IMG/VR virus record: IMGVR_UViG_3300037882_001611
Coordinates: 1-62,432 of that record
Direction: 5' to 3' (one strand)
Length of the DNA stretch: 62,432 nucleotides
DNA from: a virus
The position numbers and the translations under genes were made by a program. Under the pieces are notes generated by a model, which was not told the DNA's origin, made no database searches, and saw only the letters and a program-made list of their open reading frames with translations. Positions 1,979-54,453 of this stretch are shown piece after piece (the first letter of the stretch is position 1; each line of letters opens with the position of its first letter).

Positions 1979-4204
1979 ATGCAAACAGTACAGCCCAGCA
2001 TTAGCCCTAATGAACTTCAACCACAGAAACTGACGGATTGGAGCAATGCACCTTCAGTTCGTCAGCTCAAGGAAGACCTTGAAACGGCGAAACAGGCTCA
2101 TGATAGCCAGATGATCCGTATCCAGCGATGGAACGATCTGACGGCTGTCAAAGGCAGTGCAAAACCACCGAAGATCAAAGGACGTTCATCGATTCAGCCA
2201 AAACTGATTCGGCGTCAGGCTGAGTGGCGATACTCAGCTTTGACAGAACCGTTTCTGTCATCAAAGAAGCTCTTCAGTGTAAAGCCGGTCACGTTTGAAG
2301 ATGCTGATGCTGCTCGACAAAATGAGCTGGTTTTGAATTGGCAATTTCGTACCAAACTCAATCGAGTGAAGTTTATTGACGATTTTGTTCGTTCAATAGT
2401 CGATGAGGGTACGGGCATTGTACAAGTGGGTTGGGTCCGTGATACGACCACAATCCAGCAGGAAGTTCCTGTCTTTTCTCATTATGAAATACAGAGTGAA
2501 GAACAACTCCAGCCTCTTCAACAGGCATTGGAGCTACGTGATACTGATCCTCGCATGTATGATGAGCAGATGGATCCTGCCATTAAAGCAGCAGTAGATT
2601 ATTATGATGAGAGCCAACAGCCTACGGTAGCTGTTCAAACTGGAACTGAGAAGGTTTCAGTTGAGAAGGTTCTCATCAATAAACCGACTGTTGAGGTGCT
2701 TAATCCTCAGAATTTTTATATTGATCCATCATGCGGTGGTGATGTTGAAAAAGCATTGTTTGCTGTCGTTTCATTTGAAACGAATAAAGCTGACTTGTCA
2801 AAAAACAAAAAACGATATAAGAATCTTGATCTGGTAAATTGGGAAGCAAATACTCCTATTACCAATCCAGACCATGAGAGTAGTAATCCAGATACGTTTC
2901 AGTTTCGAGATCAACTTCGAAAGCGTGTGGTAGCCTACGAATATTGGGGCTTCTACGATATCCATGGTAATGGCCGATTGGTACCGATTGTGTGTACTTG
3001 GATCGGTGATGTCATTATTCGTATGGAAGAAAATCCCTTTCCGGATCAAAAGCTCCCCTTCGTTTTGGTTCCTTATCTTCCTGTAAAGCGTGAGCTTTAT
3101 GGCGAGCCTGATGCTGAGCTTTTGGAAGATAACCAGAAGATCCTTGGTGCTGTATTCCGTGGCATGATCGATCTGCTCGGTCGATCCGCAAATGGTCAGC
3201 AAGGTTTTGCTAAGGGGATGCTCGATCCTCTCAATCGTCGTCGATATGAAAATGGTCAGGACTATGAGTTCAATCCAAACCTAACGCCTGCGGCTGGTTT
3301 GATTGAACATAGATATCCAGAATTCCCTCAGTCTGCATTGCAGATGGCTGGTCTCCAGAACCAAGAAGCAGAAGCTCTTACTGGGGTAAAAGCTTTTGCT
3401 AGTGGCTTGTCTGGTGAAAGTTACGGTGATGTAGCTGCTGGTATTCGTGGTGCTCTTGACGCAGCATCCAAGCGAGAGATGGCTATTCTTCGCCGTATAG
3501 CGAAGGGTATGATCGAAATCGGTCAGAAGATCGTCAGCATGAATGCTGTCTTCCTTTCGAAGGAAGAAGTGATCCGAGTCACGAACGAAGAATTTGTCAC
3601 TGTAAAACGTGAAGATCTTCAGGGTAATTTTGATCTAGACACTGATATTTCTACTGCTGAGGTGGATAATCAGAAAGCTCAAGATCTTGCTTTCATGCTT
3701 CAGACTATCGGCAACAATATGGATATGAGCATCACGCTCATGATCCTTGCTGAAATTGCTGAATTGAAGCGTATGCCTGAATTGGCTGAAAAACTCCGTC
3801 GCTTCAAACCGCAGGTTACTCCGGAACAACAGCAGATGCAGGCACTCCAGCTTGAAGAGATGAAGTTGAAAGTGGAAGAACTTCGTTCGAAGGTTGAGTT
3901 GAATCGTGCCAAAACTGCCGAAGCTCTAGCCTCAAAAGATCAAAAGAACCTCGATTATCTTGAGCAAGAGACAGGAACCAAACACACCCGAGATATGCAA
4001 AAGCAAGGCGCTCAGGCTCGTGGTAATCAGGATCTTCTGGTGACGAAAGCACTTACTACACCAACAAAGGAAGGTGAAAGTCGTCCTGATGTAGAGGCTG
4101 CCATTGGATTCAATGAGATCAGTGATCGTCTAAATGATGCTGGACAACCTGCTCAAGTTGATTATCCAGTTGACAATCCACCCCAAGTTGGAGGAATGCT
4201 CTAA
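1979..4204 (+). CDS. Portal protein, N4 gp59-like
   Basis: The 741-residue protein has the size and position of the N4 portal (gp59, about 760 residues), the dodecameric ring at the capsid vertex through which DNA is packaged and ejected. Visible features fit a podovirus portal: a helical N-terminal clip region, a central core with acidic stretches, and a C-terminal coiled-coil region (about 600-700, many E, K, Q and L), probably the barrel or crown. It lies upstream of the scaffold-like and major capsid genes in the order seen in N4 (59-58-57-56). The identification rests on size, order and composition rather than on a specific catalytic motif. Confidence 0.88.
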
Positions 4205-51978: not shown

Positions 51979-52033
51979 TGTTGTTCTCCGGGTTTGGACC
52001 GATAATGGTTTGAAAAAACAAACCAAATAAAAA

Positions 52034-52061
52034 ATCCCACGCCAAATGAATGACGTGGGAT
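52034..52061 (-). terminator. Terminator after the tmRNA gene
   Basis: ATCCCACG pairs with CGTGGGAT around a 12-base loop and is followed on the minus strand by TTTTTTATTT. It closes the RNA locus and separates it from the YfaP-like gene. Confidence 0.9.
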
Positions 52062-52400
52062 TTCTTCTAACAATTCTGTTGCAAGGCTGTTAGAAGCCCC
52101 TATCTGCTACCTATTAGGCAGCAAGACGAAGTGCCATTACTGGCGAATTGTCGTTGGCATTTGTTGCTAACTATCCCGTCACGGTGGGCCATTCCGGATC
52201 GCGTTCAATTTCAGTCTTTCGGATCGAGACTATTTCACCCCCATCAACTGCCCTGTGGGCTCGCCCGTCGAGCCCGGACATGCACTCAGAGAGGCACTTC
52301 CTGCTTTGGCGATCATTCCCACAGGACAGATGGTGGAGGTGGCGGGTACCGCCCCCGCGTCTCCGATTGTCTTACGTTGATCGAATTACGATCATATCCT
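52062..52400 (-). ncRNA. ssrA: Transfer-messenger RNA, circularly permuted (two-piece) type
   Basis: Reading the minus strand, an acceptor piece comes first and ends CACCTCC-A-CCA at 52331, preceded by a T-arm-like hairpin (GCGGG/CCCGC). An 88-base intervening segment follows (52243-52330), closed by a perfect 8-bp stem CCTGTGGG/CCCACAGG (52318-52325 and 52252-52259). The coding piece then starts at 52242 with GGGGGTG, which pairs with CACCTCC and places a G-U wobble at the third pair, the alanine identity element of tmRNAs. The tag frame ends in double stop codons within a GCTGCC/GGTAGC hairpin. A TTCTAACA/TGTTAGAA stem follows, then a terminator. This acceptor-first order is that of alphaproteobacterial ssrA. 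tmRNA rescues stalled ribosomes and tags their products for proteolysis. Exact 5' and 3' ends are not determined. Confidence 0.93.
52111..52158 (-). other. tmRNA tag-peptide reading frame
   Basis: The frame reads ANDNSPVMALRLAA followed by TAA TAG. It begins AND and ends LAA, as tags in alphaproteobacteria do (AND… …LAA). The last residues are the expected ClpXP/ClpAP recognition signal. The central SPVMALR part is unlike host tags I can recall. The first alanine of the full tag would come from the charged tmRNA itself. Confidence 0.88.
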
Positions 52401-52459
52401 GAAGAATAATGCCCCCTAGAGCTTTAGGCAAGAGGGGTGATAACGGTGCATCATTCTTC
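52401..52459 (-). ncRNA. 12-bp stem-loop immediately upstream of the tmRNA acceptor piece
   Basis: GAAGAATGATGC pairs with GCATTATTCTTC (12 bp, one wobble) around an inner hairpin CCCCT/AGGGG. It may be the first helix of the tmRNA precursor or a processing signal between the large structured RNA and the tmRNA. Confidence 0.7.
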
Positions 52460-52961
52460 TGAATTTGCAAACTCGGATGGCCTGCTGGTATATTGCTACA
52501 TTGAAAGCACAGGGACCAGCAGGGCGCACCAAAGATGAACCCGCAAGCATTGGAGTGTTTCAGATCCCATAAATGGGGTACGTTTCTCTTCCAATGCAGG
52601 CTTCGTCATTCCTAAATATCGTTGTATTCAGTAACTAATTTAACGAGTTGAGTCTGATAACTCAATACAGCTAGTCAATGCTGTATCCCCTGTTCGGATG
52701 CCTATTCAGGCAAATTTCGTGCTTTAGAGTTTATTATATTGGACTATCCAAAGCTGACCAATGTGCTTGCTTCGATGTCTCTAGCCACAATGTAGCTTCG
52801 TTTCTTTCGATGCCACGGAGATACGTGGGTTGTTTGGATCCGAGGGAACCAACCTCGCTAAGCCACCCTTAGGGCCGATCTACGTCTTAGGCCGCTCTCG
52901 TTAGTAATGATAGCTCCCCTGTGACCGAGCCGTCCTCAATTGCAGAACTTAATCTACGGAG

Positions 52962-52985
52962 AGGATGCATTGGGATCGAACCAAT
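52962..52985 (-). other. Canonical tRNA-like T-arm inside the structured RNA
   Basis: ATTGG-TTCGATC-CCAAT has a perfect 5-bp stem, the G53-C61 closing pair and a consensus T-loop. The upstream sequence offers only an imperfect anticodon-like arm (CACC/GGTG with loop containing TTTGAAT) and no normal D-arm, so this is not a standard tRNA gene. It may be a T-loop module of the large RNA. Confidence 0.45.
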
Positions 52986-53765
52986 ACCATCACCAATTCA
53001 AAAGGTGTTCGGGTACATGGACTCTAGGTTACACCCGTATGACCGTCAATTCTCGTTCCACTTGAGGTTTTGTCAGTGCCCGCCTGACTACACAATGCCG
53101 CTTAACGTCCATCTATTCACAGAATAGTGTTAGGACGACGGGAGCATGAATAACTCTGGTTCACGGAGCTTCTAATTGAGAGCACAACTTTCAATTTCGA
53201 TGCTAATTTCCTAACCAGTCTCCGTGTTCCCCAATCGGTACACTATGAGCAGTTTCCAACCGTTTCGATCTTCCTTGTCCTCCGGTCATGACTCCGGACG
53301 ATTAGAAGACACTGGTTGAACTCTTATTTCCGTTTCCACCCACGGTGCTGAGAGCGTATCATCAGACCCGGTGGATCTAGGCTTATCCAAAGTACCAGAG
53401 CCATGGTGGCGCCTATCTGGTTCATCCCAGCAACGGTCTGAATGGTCCTAACAATCATTCAGACTTTTTCTTGGTTTTAGAACATCGCAAAAAACCAATA
53501 TTCTCATCTTAGAAGGCCGGACCACCGCTTCGTTGCGACTTCTCGTGTTCGGCATGATCAAGAACCAAATTTCGACCTGCTACTATTAGGTGTTTAGGTC
53601 TATCAGCCTTCAAAAATGAGAGTGACCGTCATCGTTGGGAGCTACCCAATCACATCTGCCCAGTCAAGCCACCTGAATGTTTAATAAGATCTTTGAGGCC
53701 CATTCAGACTGAAGGTTTGAAGCCTCAAGAAATCACGCTATTCCTGCTGTGTACTTTAGCAGTTT

Positions 53766-53787
53766 TTTATCTATTGCAATAGATAAA
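53766..53787 (-). repeat. Perfect 22-bp palindrome
   Basis: TTTATCTATTGCAATAGATAAA is fully self-complementary. It begins 17 bases downstream of the hammerhead cleavage site on the minus strand, so it would form the first hairpin of the released RNA, or serve as a protein-binding site in DNA. Confidence 0.75.
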
Positions 53788-53798
53788 CATCTAAGCGT

Positions 53799-53844
53799 GG
53801 GTATGACCATTTGGTTTCGTCTCATAAAGACTCATCAGATACCC
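53799..53844 (-). ncRNA. Type I hammerhead ribozyme
   Basis: Reading the minus strand: stem I strand GGGTAT, core CTGATGA, stem II GTCT-TTATG-AGAC, core GAA, stem III ACC-AAAT-GGT, C17, then ATACCC, which pairs perfectly with GGGTAT. Every conserved core nucleotide is present (CUGANGA, GAA, the A15.1-U16.1 pair and the cleavage-site C). Cleavage is predicted between 53805 and 53804. It would leave the ribozyme on the 3' end of the upstream MucR-like mRNA and give the large RNA a 5'-hydroxyl start. Confidence 0.95.
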
Positions 53845-53855
53845 TGTATTTTTAG

Positions 53856-53898
53856 TTTGCCGCCCTGACTCTGGGGGATTGAGCCAGAGCGACAAACC
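53856..53898 (-). other. Long hairpin between the MucR-like gene and the hammerhead
   Basis: GTTTGTCGCTC pairs with GGGCGGCAAAC (11 bp, two wobbles), with an alternative inner CTCTGG/CCAGAG stem. It starts 13 bases after the MucR-like stop. There is no U-tract, so it more likely protects the mRNA 3' end created by ribozyme cleavage than terminates transcription. Confidence 0.65.
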
Positions 53899-53910
53899 AA
53901 AAAACCAGAC

Positions 53911-54417
53911 TTATTCAGTCACTGCCAGTTCAGCGGTTGGTACAGCGGTTGGTTCAACCAATGGTGCTGCTTGGGTCTGAACTCCAGATTCTGTAATCGT
54001 GGAAGCATTGGAAACAGTGTCCTTGGCTTTGACGCCAAGACCGATCTGTTTTGCCAATGCAGCACGAGTGCTAGAATAGTTGGGAGCCGTCATCGGATAA
54101 TCAGCGGGAAGATTCCACTTGGTGCGATACTGATCCGGCGTCATGCCATAATGCGTCATCAGATGGCGCTTGAGCATCTTCAGTTTCTTGCCGTCTTCAA
54201 GGCAGACAATATAGTCAGGCTTGACCGAGGAACGGATCGAAACTGCTGGTTCCTGAGCAACGACTTCAGGTTCGGGAGCCTTCTGCGTGTTGTTCAAGGC
54301 ATCATAAGTGCTCTGGATGAGGCTTGACAGTTCATCGGCACGGATGGTGGTGTTCGATACAAAAGCCGAGACGATACCTGTGGTCATTTGCAGAATTTTG
54401 AGTTCAATGTCATTCAT
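53911..54417 (-). CDS. MucR/Ros-family zinc-finger transcriptional regulator
   Basis: The protein has 168 residues from the ATG at 54417 (AGGAG upstream). The central region is plainly MucR/Ros: SVKPDYIVCLEDGKKLKMLKRHL, MTHYGMTPDQYRTKWNLP, DYPMTAPNYSSTRAALAKQIGLG. Zinc ligands C72, D75, H85 and H89 have the C-x2-D-x9-H-x3-H spacing of MucR proteins. The C-terminus is a disordered alanine/threonine/proline tail. MucR proteins are global regulators largely confined to Alphaproteobacteria, so this gene points to the host class. It may control host or phage genes in the infected cell. Confidence 0.94.
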   Translation of the reverse strand: MNDIELKILQMTTGIVSAFVSNTTIRADELSSLIQSTYDALNNTQKAPEPEVVAQEPAVSIRSSVKPDYIVCLEDGKKLKMLKRHLMTHYGMTPDQYRTKWNLPADYPMTAPNYSSTRAALAKQIGLGVKAKDTVSNASTITESGVQTQAAPLVEPTAVPTAELAVTE

Positions 54418-54453
54418 TTCATTTCTCCTGTGTGAGCAAATACTCACAAAAAA

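Follow-up and report, generated by a model that had tools for sequence, protein, structure and literature searches.

A noncoding segment of 1,357 bases between a hammerhead ribozyme and a permuted tmRNA in an N4-like phage: a candidate for a class of large phage RNAs

The window analysed here is a stretch of viral DNA of 62,432 bases (IMG/VR record IMGVR_UViG_3300037882_001611). It encodes a virion RNA polymerase of 3,447 amino acids with N4 domains (E 2.5e-53), the two-part RNAP1/RNAP2 genes are present in the same record, and the major capsid protein is 80% identical to its counterparts in N4-like Erwinia and Achromobacter phages. Judged by its genes, the window is an N4-like phage, a relative of the Schitoviridae; the phage origin proposed in the initial annotation of this locus holds on the evidence of the polymerase domains. 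Since no viral contig found has an RNAP2 more than 70% identical, and the best isolate, Sinorhizobium phage ort11 (Schitoviridae), reaches 59%, we regard the phage as an isolated lineage. The host is probably a member of the Sphingomonadales, because mucR is nearest to Sphingomonadales genes (the closest cellular relatives of MucR, about 63% identical) and the tmRNA is nearest to those of Erythrobacter phages.

The locus of interest and its flanking genes all lie on the minus strand. In the order of transcription, mucR is followed by an inverted repeat, a hammerhead, the 1,357-base segment, a permuted tmRNA, a terminator and the gene for a 662-aa protein that is widespread in phages. The features are:

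53911 to 54447, minus strand: mucR/ros-type regulator gene (Pfam ROS_MUCR, E 6.5e-49), 5' of the noncoding unit
53850 to 53902, minus strand: long inverted repeat, 3' of mucR and 5' of the hammerhead (folding energy as RNA -32.8 kcal/mol, z -7.2)
53799 to 53844, minus strand: type I hammerhead, GGGUAU-CUGAUGA-GUCU..AGAC-GAA-ACC.AAAU.GGU-C/AUACCC, the slash marking the cut (RF00008 and core finder)
52448 to 53804, minus strand: noncoding segment of 1,357 nt, candidate large RNA or pre-tmRNA leader (no coding signal, Rfam or BLAST match)
52733 to 52760, minus strand: sigma-70-like promoter TGGTCA-16-TATAAT (10 of 12 matches), inside the segment and 5' of the tmRNA
52401 to 52459, minus strand: 12-bp hairpin GAAGAAUGAUGC/GCAUUAUUCUUC, directly before the tmRNA core (from the sequence)
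52065 to 52447, minus strand: permuted two-piece tmRNA of the alphaproteobacterial type, tag ..ANDNSPVMALRLAA (RF01849, RF04321)
52029 to 52066, minus strand: intrinsic terminator that closes the unit (16-pair hairpin and T-run, z -8.9)

The phage-borne mucR/ros regulator adjoins the RNA block, and related Schitoviridae lack it at the corresponding position. The genes that flank the block are RNAP2 and the MoxR/VWA pair. In ort11 and other relatives they lie far closer together, with neither a tmRNA nor mucR between them, and we therefore take the tmRNA/mucR block to be cargo of the present phage. None of 200 shuffles was as stable as the inverted repeat at 53850-53902, which lacks a T-run and so is not a clear terminator; it may be bound by a protein, be cut by RNase III or be what is left of a terminator. 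No terminator-like site was found on the minus strand in the interval from the hammerhead to the tmRNA.

Read on the minus strand, the hammerhead is GGGUAU CUGAUGA GUCUUUAUGAGAC GAA ACC AAAU GGU C / AUACCC, with the predicted cut between 53805 and 53804. It has what defines a hammerhead, namely the CUGANGA and GAA core with all core residues, three stems and a UH cleavage site. Its RF00008 score of 22.6 bits (E 6.7e-4 for the record) is under the gathering score, with the core intact, and an independent core-and-stems finder returns it as the single site in the window. Among comparison phage loci the same finder gave three matches in 1.87 Mb, of which only those in a near-identical pair of loci, L199 and L245, look real. 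On its sequence we consider the hammerhead a real ribozyme, for which self-cleavage is predicted. In L199 and L245 the hammerhead lies just 3' of a permuted tmRNA, about 440 nt past the acceptor, within the following gene's 5' leader. The nearest similar hammerheads are those of the Agrobacterium Schitoviridae OLIVR1-3 (GUGUAU...AUACAC). The one in OLIVR1 (NC_055840, locus L310, 3835-4125) is very like that of the window and lies between two RNAs, one of them unannotated and similar to a tRNA that carries a long insertion (GCCGGGG...CCCCGGC-ACCA), the other folded and about 115 nt in length.

Hammerheads of phages are found beside genes in prophages and may take part in the processing of long transcripts (PMC3088659). 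The complete core is common to these and to the hammerhead of the window. Many of them precede an ORF, whereas the present one precedes the noncoding segment and the tmRNA, without a plausible ORF after the cut.

The tmRNA is matched by RF01849 with 106.2 bits (E 5e-28) and by RF04321 with 99.8 bits. Its acceptor domain comes before the tag domain, it has a CCA, the tag ends in AA, and it can be aligned with tmRNAs of Erythrobacter, Mesorhizobium and Rhodobacter phages; by this evidence it is a real permuted tmRNA. The setting initially described for the segment, next to a ribozyme and a tmRNA, is thus confirmed for both neighbours by the Rfam and core evidence. Permuted tmRNAs are known from phage Melnitz and others (PMC9004378), and the two-piece alphaproteobacterial form is common to these and to the window. 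The neighbour of the Melnitz-type tmRNA is a glutamine riboswitch, whereas here it is the hammerhead with 1.36 kb.

That the segment has no credible protein frame, as had been claimed, was borne out: the longest start-to-stop ORF has 68 aa, and there is no PHROG, period-3 or codon signal. None of the ten stop-to-stop peptides of the segment matched a PHROG family, the period-3 signal is 0.5 as compared to 12-36 in coding windows, and the codon scores are at the level of shuffled sequence, with no frame resembling the phage's own genes. The segment is firmly noncoding over 1,357 bases. Decayed protein-coding sequence, which could also leave an ORF-free stretch within a gene-dense genome, is very improbable in view of the period-3 signal, the codon scores and the lack of a family match.

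We compared the region with all 4227 Rfam families using cmscan. Down to E 10 there were only the tmRNA, the hammerhead and chance-level matches; the two tmRNA models alone were above the Rfam cut-off and the hammerhead was below it. No family matches the segment to E 10, including GOLLD, ROOL and OLE, which had been suggested as the ones to check. We rejected the identity with GOLLD, since RF02032, a model of the conserved 3' domain, has no match here to E 10, and that with ROOL, since RF03087 has no match to E 10 in a search that had no positive control match. ROOL is a large phage noncoding RNA that is often found near tRNA islands (PMC12286853); its model has 574 positions, and the segment is about twice as long.

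GOLLD (RF02032) is a large phage noncoding RNA that in Erythrobacter phages shares its strand with tRNAs and a permuted tmRNA and lies 5' of both. The silence of its model in the window is meaningful, because the same model detects GOLLD in tmRNA-related phages (E 1e-34 to 1e-56). It finds GOLLD with 193 bits in Mesorhizobium phage Cp1R7A-A1 and with 142 and 120 bits in Erythrobacter phages L02 and XM05; of the four phages whose permuted tmRNAs most resemble that of the window, these are three. The GOLLDs of L02 and XM05 are under the Rfam cut-off, yet have E values of 1e-34 or better. The three sites are found at 1501-1963 of locus L329 in Cp1R7A-A1 (MT188704, 38209-38671), at 1501-1991 of locus L330 in L02 (OL955261, 69523-70013) and at 2781-3265 on the minus strand in XM05 (PV416404); in the record tables examined, they carry no GOLLD annotation.

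In Cp1R7A-A1 and L02 there are tRNAs embedded in the GOLLD. The order in L02, on one strand, is GOLLD, about 30-31 tRNAs and the permuted tmRNA, and XM05 agrees with this order (GOLLD 5' of the tRNA array and permuted tmRNA) if its ends join. As for the GOLLD context, the window is from a phage and the tmRNA is adjacent, and there is no tRNA in the record. The segment has no embedded tRNA and has a hammerhead at its 5' side, whereas no hammerhead was found near the three GOLLDs. What remains of the resemblance to GOLLD and ROOL that had been noted is the GOLLD-like setting in two Erythrobacter phages; neither RNA is found as a match. That the segment occupies the relative place of GOLLD 5' of the tmRNA is the best comparative hint of a large RNA, an analogy of position only. 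The same type of neighbourhood could be expected of a GOLLD or ROOL that is too diverged for the Rfam models. However, there is no match to E 10, the GOLLDs of alphaproteobacterial phages are detected by the model with E values no worse than 1e-34, including those under the cut-off, and the segment has no DNA similarity to these GOLLDs, and we find such a diverged relative quite unlikely. A different case is phage ICP1, in which an ORF-free segment of about 1 kb, not assigned to a class, is highly transcribed (PMC7567579). Both stretches are long and ORF-free; transcription is known for ICP1, while the segment of the window is known from its sequence. We found no hammerhead near the ICP1 noncoding RNA.

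A search of related phages, as proposed in the initial annotation, turned up no homologue of the segment, whether by BLAST, with covariance models or through neighbouring proteins. At the DNA level, BLAST against phages and plasmids found no relative. Following three neighbouring proteins led to 64 viral loci (7, 27 and 30) with no match to the segment, and the same is true for 34 whole records that were screened. Screens of 119 hammerhead loci and 119 permuted-tmRNA loci gave no like segment. Of permuted-tmRNA loci about 124 were covered, with no relative; recognised tRNA arrays apart, the upstream ORF-free stretch that comes next in length there has 737 nt. Patterns specific for close relatives of the hammerhead and the tmRNA had 0 matches. 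Single-sequence covariance models, which have little reach, were built for two sub-domains and in 43 records and 80 loci gave only self-matches above noise. Two candidates were rejected. In L236, an apparent extension 5' of the tmRNA is coding sequence. Positions 500-2032 of L173 (IMGVR_UViG_3300035498_000621, 161 kb) have a similar look, with a hammerhead, a 25-aa ORF and about 1.1 kb that is rich in hairpins, free of ORFs and ends at a tRNA-Glu; there is no common sequence, and the hammerhead precedes the 25-aa ORF. At L173 no further Rfam family was recognised, and BLAST gave no match of good quality.

Within the segment we see the following structural elements:

53734 to 53799, minus strand: predicted three-way junction, CACGCU/AGCGUG closing two hairpins (z -3.1; 1 of 200 shuffles equally stable)
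53673 to 53728, minus strand: candidate H-type pseudoknot, UUGAGGC/GCCUCAA with CUGAAUG/CAUUCAG (two perfect 7-bp stems)
53436 to 53464, minus strand: 9-bp perfect hairpin; read on the plus strand, a terminator-like hairpin with TTTTCTT
53156 to 53226, minus strand: candidate pseudoknot, CACGGAG/CUCCGUG with CUGGUU/AACCAG
52969 to 52985, minus strand: T-arm-like hairpin ATTGG-TTCGATC-CCAAT (from the sequence)
52481 to 52597, minus strand: hairpins GCAUUGGA/UCCAAUGC and CCUGCUGGU/ACCAGCAGG (stem search, fold prediction)

The helices of the three-way junction have probabilities of 0.93-0.97, and the junction begins five bases past the predicted cut. The loops of the candidate pseudoknot at 53673-53728 are 14 (L1), 1 (L2) and 13 (L3), and similar pairs are present in controls; the pseudoknot counts in the segment show no excess over chance.

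The structural tests were picked in the course of the analysis, and their p-values are nominal. Counting perfect local stems with loops of at most 60 nt, we find 19 of at least 6 bp, 9 of at least 7 bp, 5 of at least 8 bp and 3 of 9 bp. For stems of at least 7 bp, the 9 observed compare with 3.8 +/- 1.9 in shuffles and a mean of 7.6 in 43 other windows of the phage; for stems of at least 8 bp, the 5 observed compare with 0.8 and 2.6, respectively. The more than fifteen perfect stems reported initially are there, as the 19 of at least 6 bp, and are above the shuffles; an excess over the phage's coding windows was not confirmed. The MFE of the whole segment has a z of -3.2 on the minus and -8.6 on the plus strand, as compared to -2.0 to -6.0 in ten coding windows, and sliding windows of 120 nt have a mean z of -0.89 inside the segment and -1.14 outside. 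A folding that is ornate beyond chance, the central idea at the outset, was not confirmed, as stem counts and folding energies are no better than in the phage's coding sequence.

Applied to known RNAs as a calibration, the energy test gave a z of -0.3 for the GOLLD of the Mesorhizobium phage, -4.8 for an Erythrobacter phage GOLLD and -2.3 for the ICP1 noncoding RNA. Since a genuine GOLLD reaches -0.3 while coding windows range from -1.6 to -4.2, the test cannot separate ornate RNA from coding sequence, and the poor score of the segment is therefore no refutation of an ornate RNA. More generally, the z from dinucleotide-shuffle folding is unfit as the sole criterion to accept or reject ornate RNAs.

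The z of -8.6 on the plus strand, together with a match to an extended -10 promoter and two hairpins that carry T-runs, could speak for a structured RNA made from that strand, with a promoter near 52465-52494 and an end at the hairpins at 53435-53470 or 53744-53770. On the other hand, the hammerhead, the tmRNA, the T-arm and the flanking genes are all on the minus strand, and the two halves of the segment have ordinary plus-strand z values (-3.1 and -3.8). Helices of at least 9 bp with G.U pairs number 16 on the minus strand, as compared to 9.4 in shuffles (3% of which reach 16), and 8 as compared to 8.2 on the plus strand, which is a weak sign for the minus strand. A plus-strand RNA thus seems unlikely.

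The tRNA-like T-arm that had been described is real as a hairpin (52985-52969), but there is no tRNA around it; neither ARAGORN nor RF00005 finds a tRNA in the record, to E 10, and the surroundings of the T-arm fold no better than shuffles (z 0.15). Potentially, the hairpin is a relic, and the segment a non-functional leader or spacer of the tmRNA unit, maybe a decayed tRNA island, with stems that arose by chance. The approximately 30 tRNAs directly 5' of the permuted tmRNA in Erythrobacter phage L02, the T-arm-like hairpin itself and structure statistics no higher than in coding windows would fit this. Nevertheless, no tRNA is left even to E 10, the hammerhead is intact, and several perfect stems of 8-9 bp persist, which decay would break; moreover, phages seldom keep 1.3 kb of junk. 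We consider the spacer possible, though somewhat improbable.

The best reading, in our opinion, is a hammerhead-trimmed precursor of a large noncoding RNA and the tmRNA, which makes the segment a class candidate; we put its chances at about even. Read-through from mucR, or another promoter, would give an RNA that ends at the terminator at 52029 and spans all three elements, hammerhead, 1.36-kb segment and permuted tmRNA. Self-cleavage between 53805 and 53804 would separate the mucR message from the noncoding part, whose 5' end would then be fixed at AUACCC, beside the compact three-way junction. Processing of the tmRNA would then release the 1.36-kb RNA, which we take to be large, structured and made by the phage during infection, at the place that GOLLD has in Erythrobacter phages. 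The hammerhead core, the tmRNA, the terminator, the lack of coding and the common strand and order can be read directly from the sequence; cotranscription, cleavage, folding as one molecule and a function of the segment's own are what we infer.

For a large RNA we counted the 1.36 kb without an ORF in a gene-dense phage and the intact hammerhead core, which is rare by chance. Against it we counted the missing homologue in everything searched, and the promoter-like site at 52760-52733, from which the tmRNA could be made without most of the segment. Judged by its sequence, this site, in a region with 8 promoter-like sites where 3.3 are expected, could allow separate transcription of the tmRNA with only the last 280 bases as its leader. 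Balancing these points, the segment has perhaps one chance in two of being a functional large phage RNA, the body of a minus-strand noncoding transcription unit. The stronger claim, a new class of giant phage RNA that is unrelated to GOLLD and ROOL, is cut at its 5' end by its own hammerhead and shares one precursor with a permuted tmRNA, we regard as doubtful, and a new RNA class remains a candidate.

GOLLD and ROOL assemble into nanocages that consist of RNA alone and have no known purpose (PMC12286853). If the large-RNA reading is true, an unrelated large RNA in GOLLD's slot, by a ribosome-rescue RNA, would suggest that the evolution of such RNAs around translation genes is a recurrent event in phages, and its own ribozyme would define the exact RNA molecule. 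If the segment is a leader only, the pairing of hammerhead and tmRNA would still amount to an unusual mode of processing for a phage tmRNA.

Finally, at the level of DNA, the segment contains a perfect palindrome of 22 bp, TTTATCTATTGCAATAGATAAA, at 53766-53787 of the window, which could be a protein operator.
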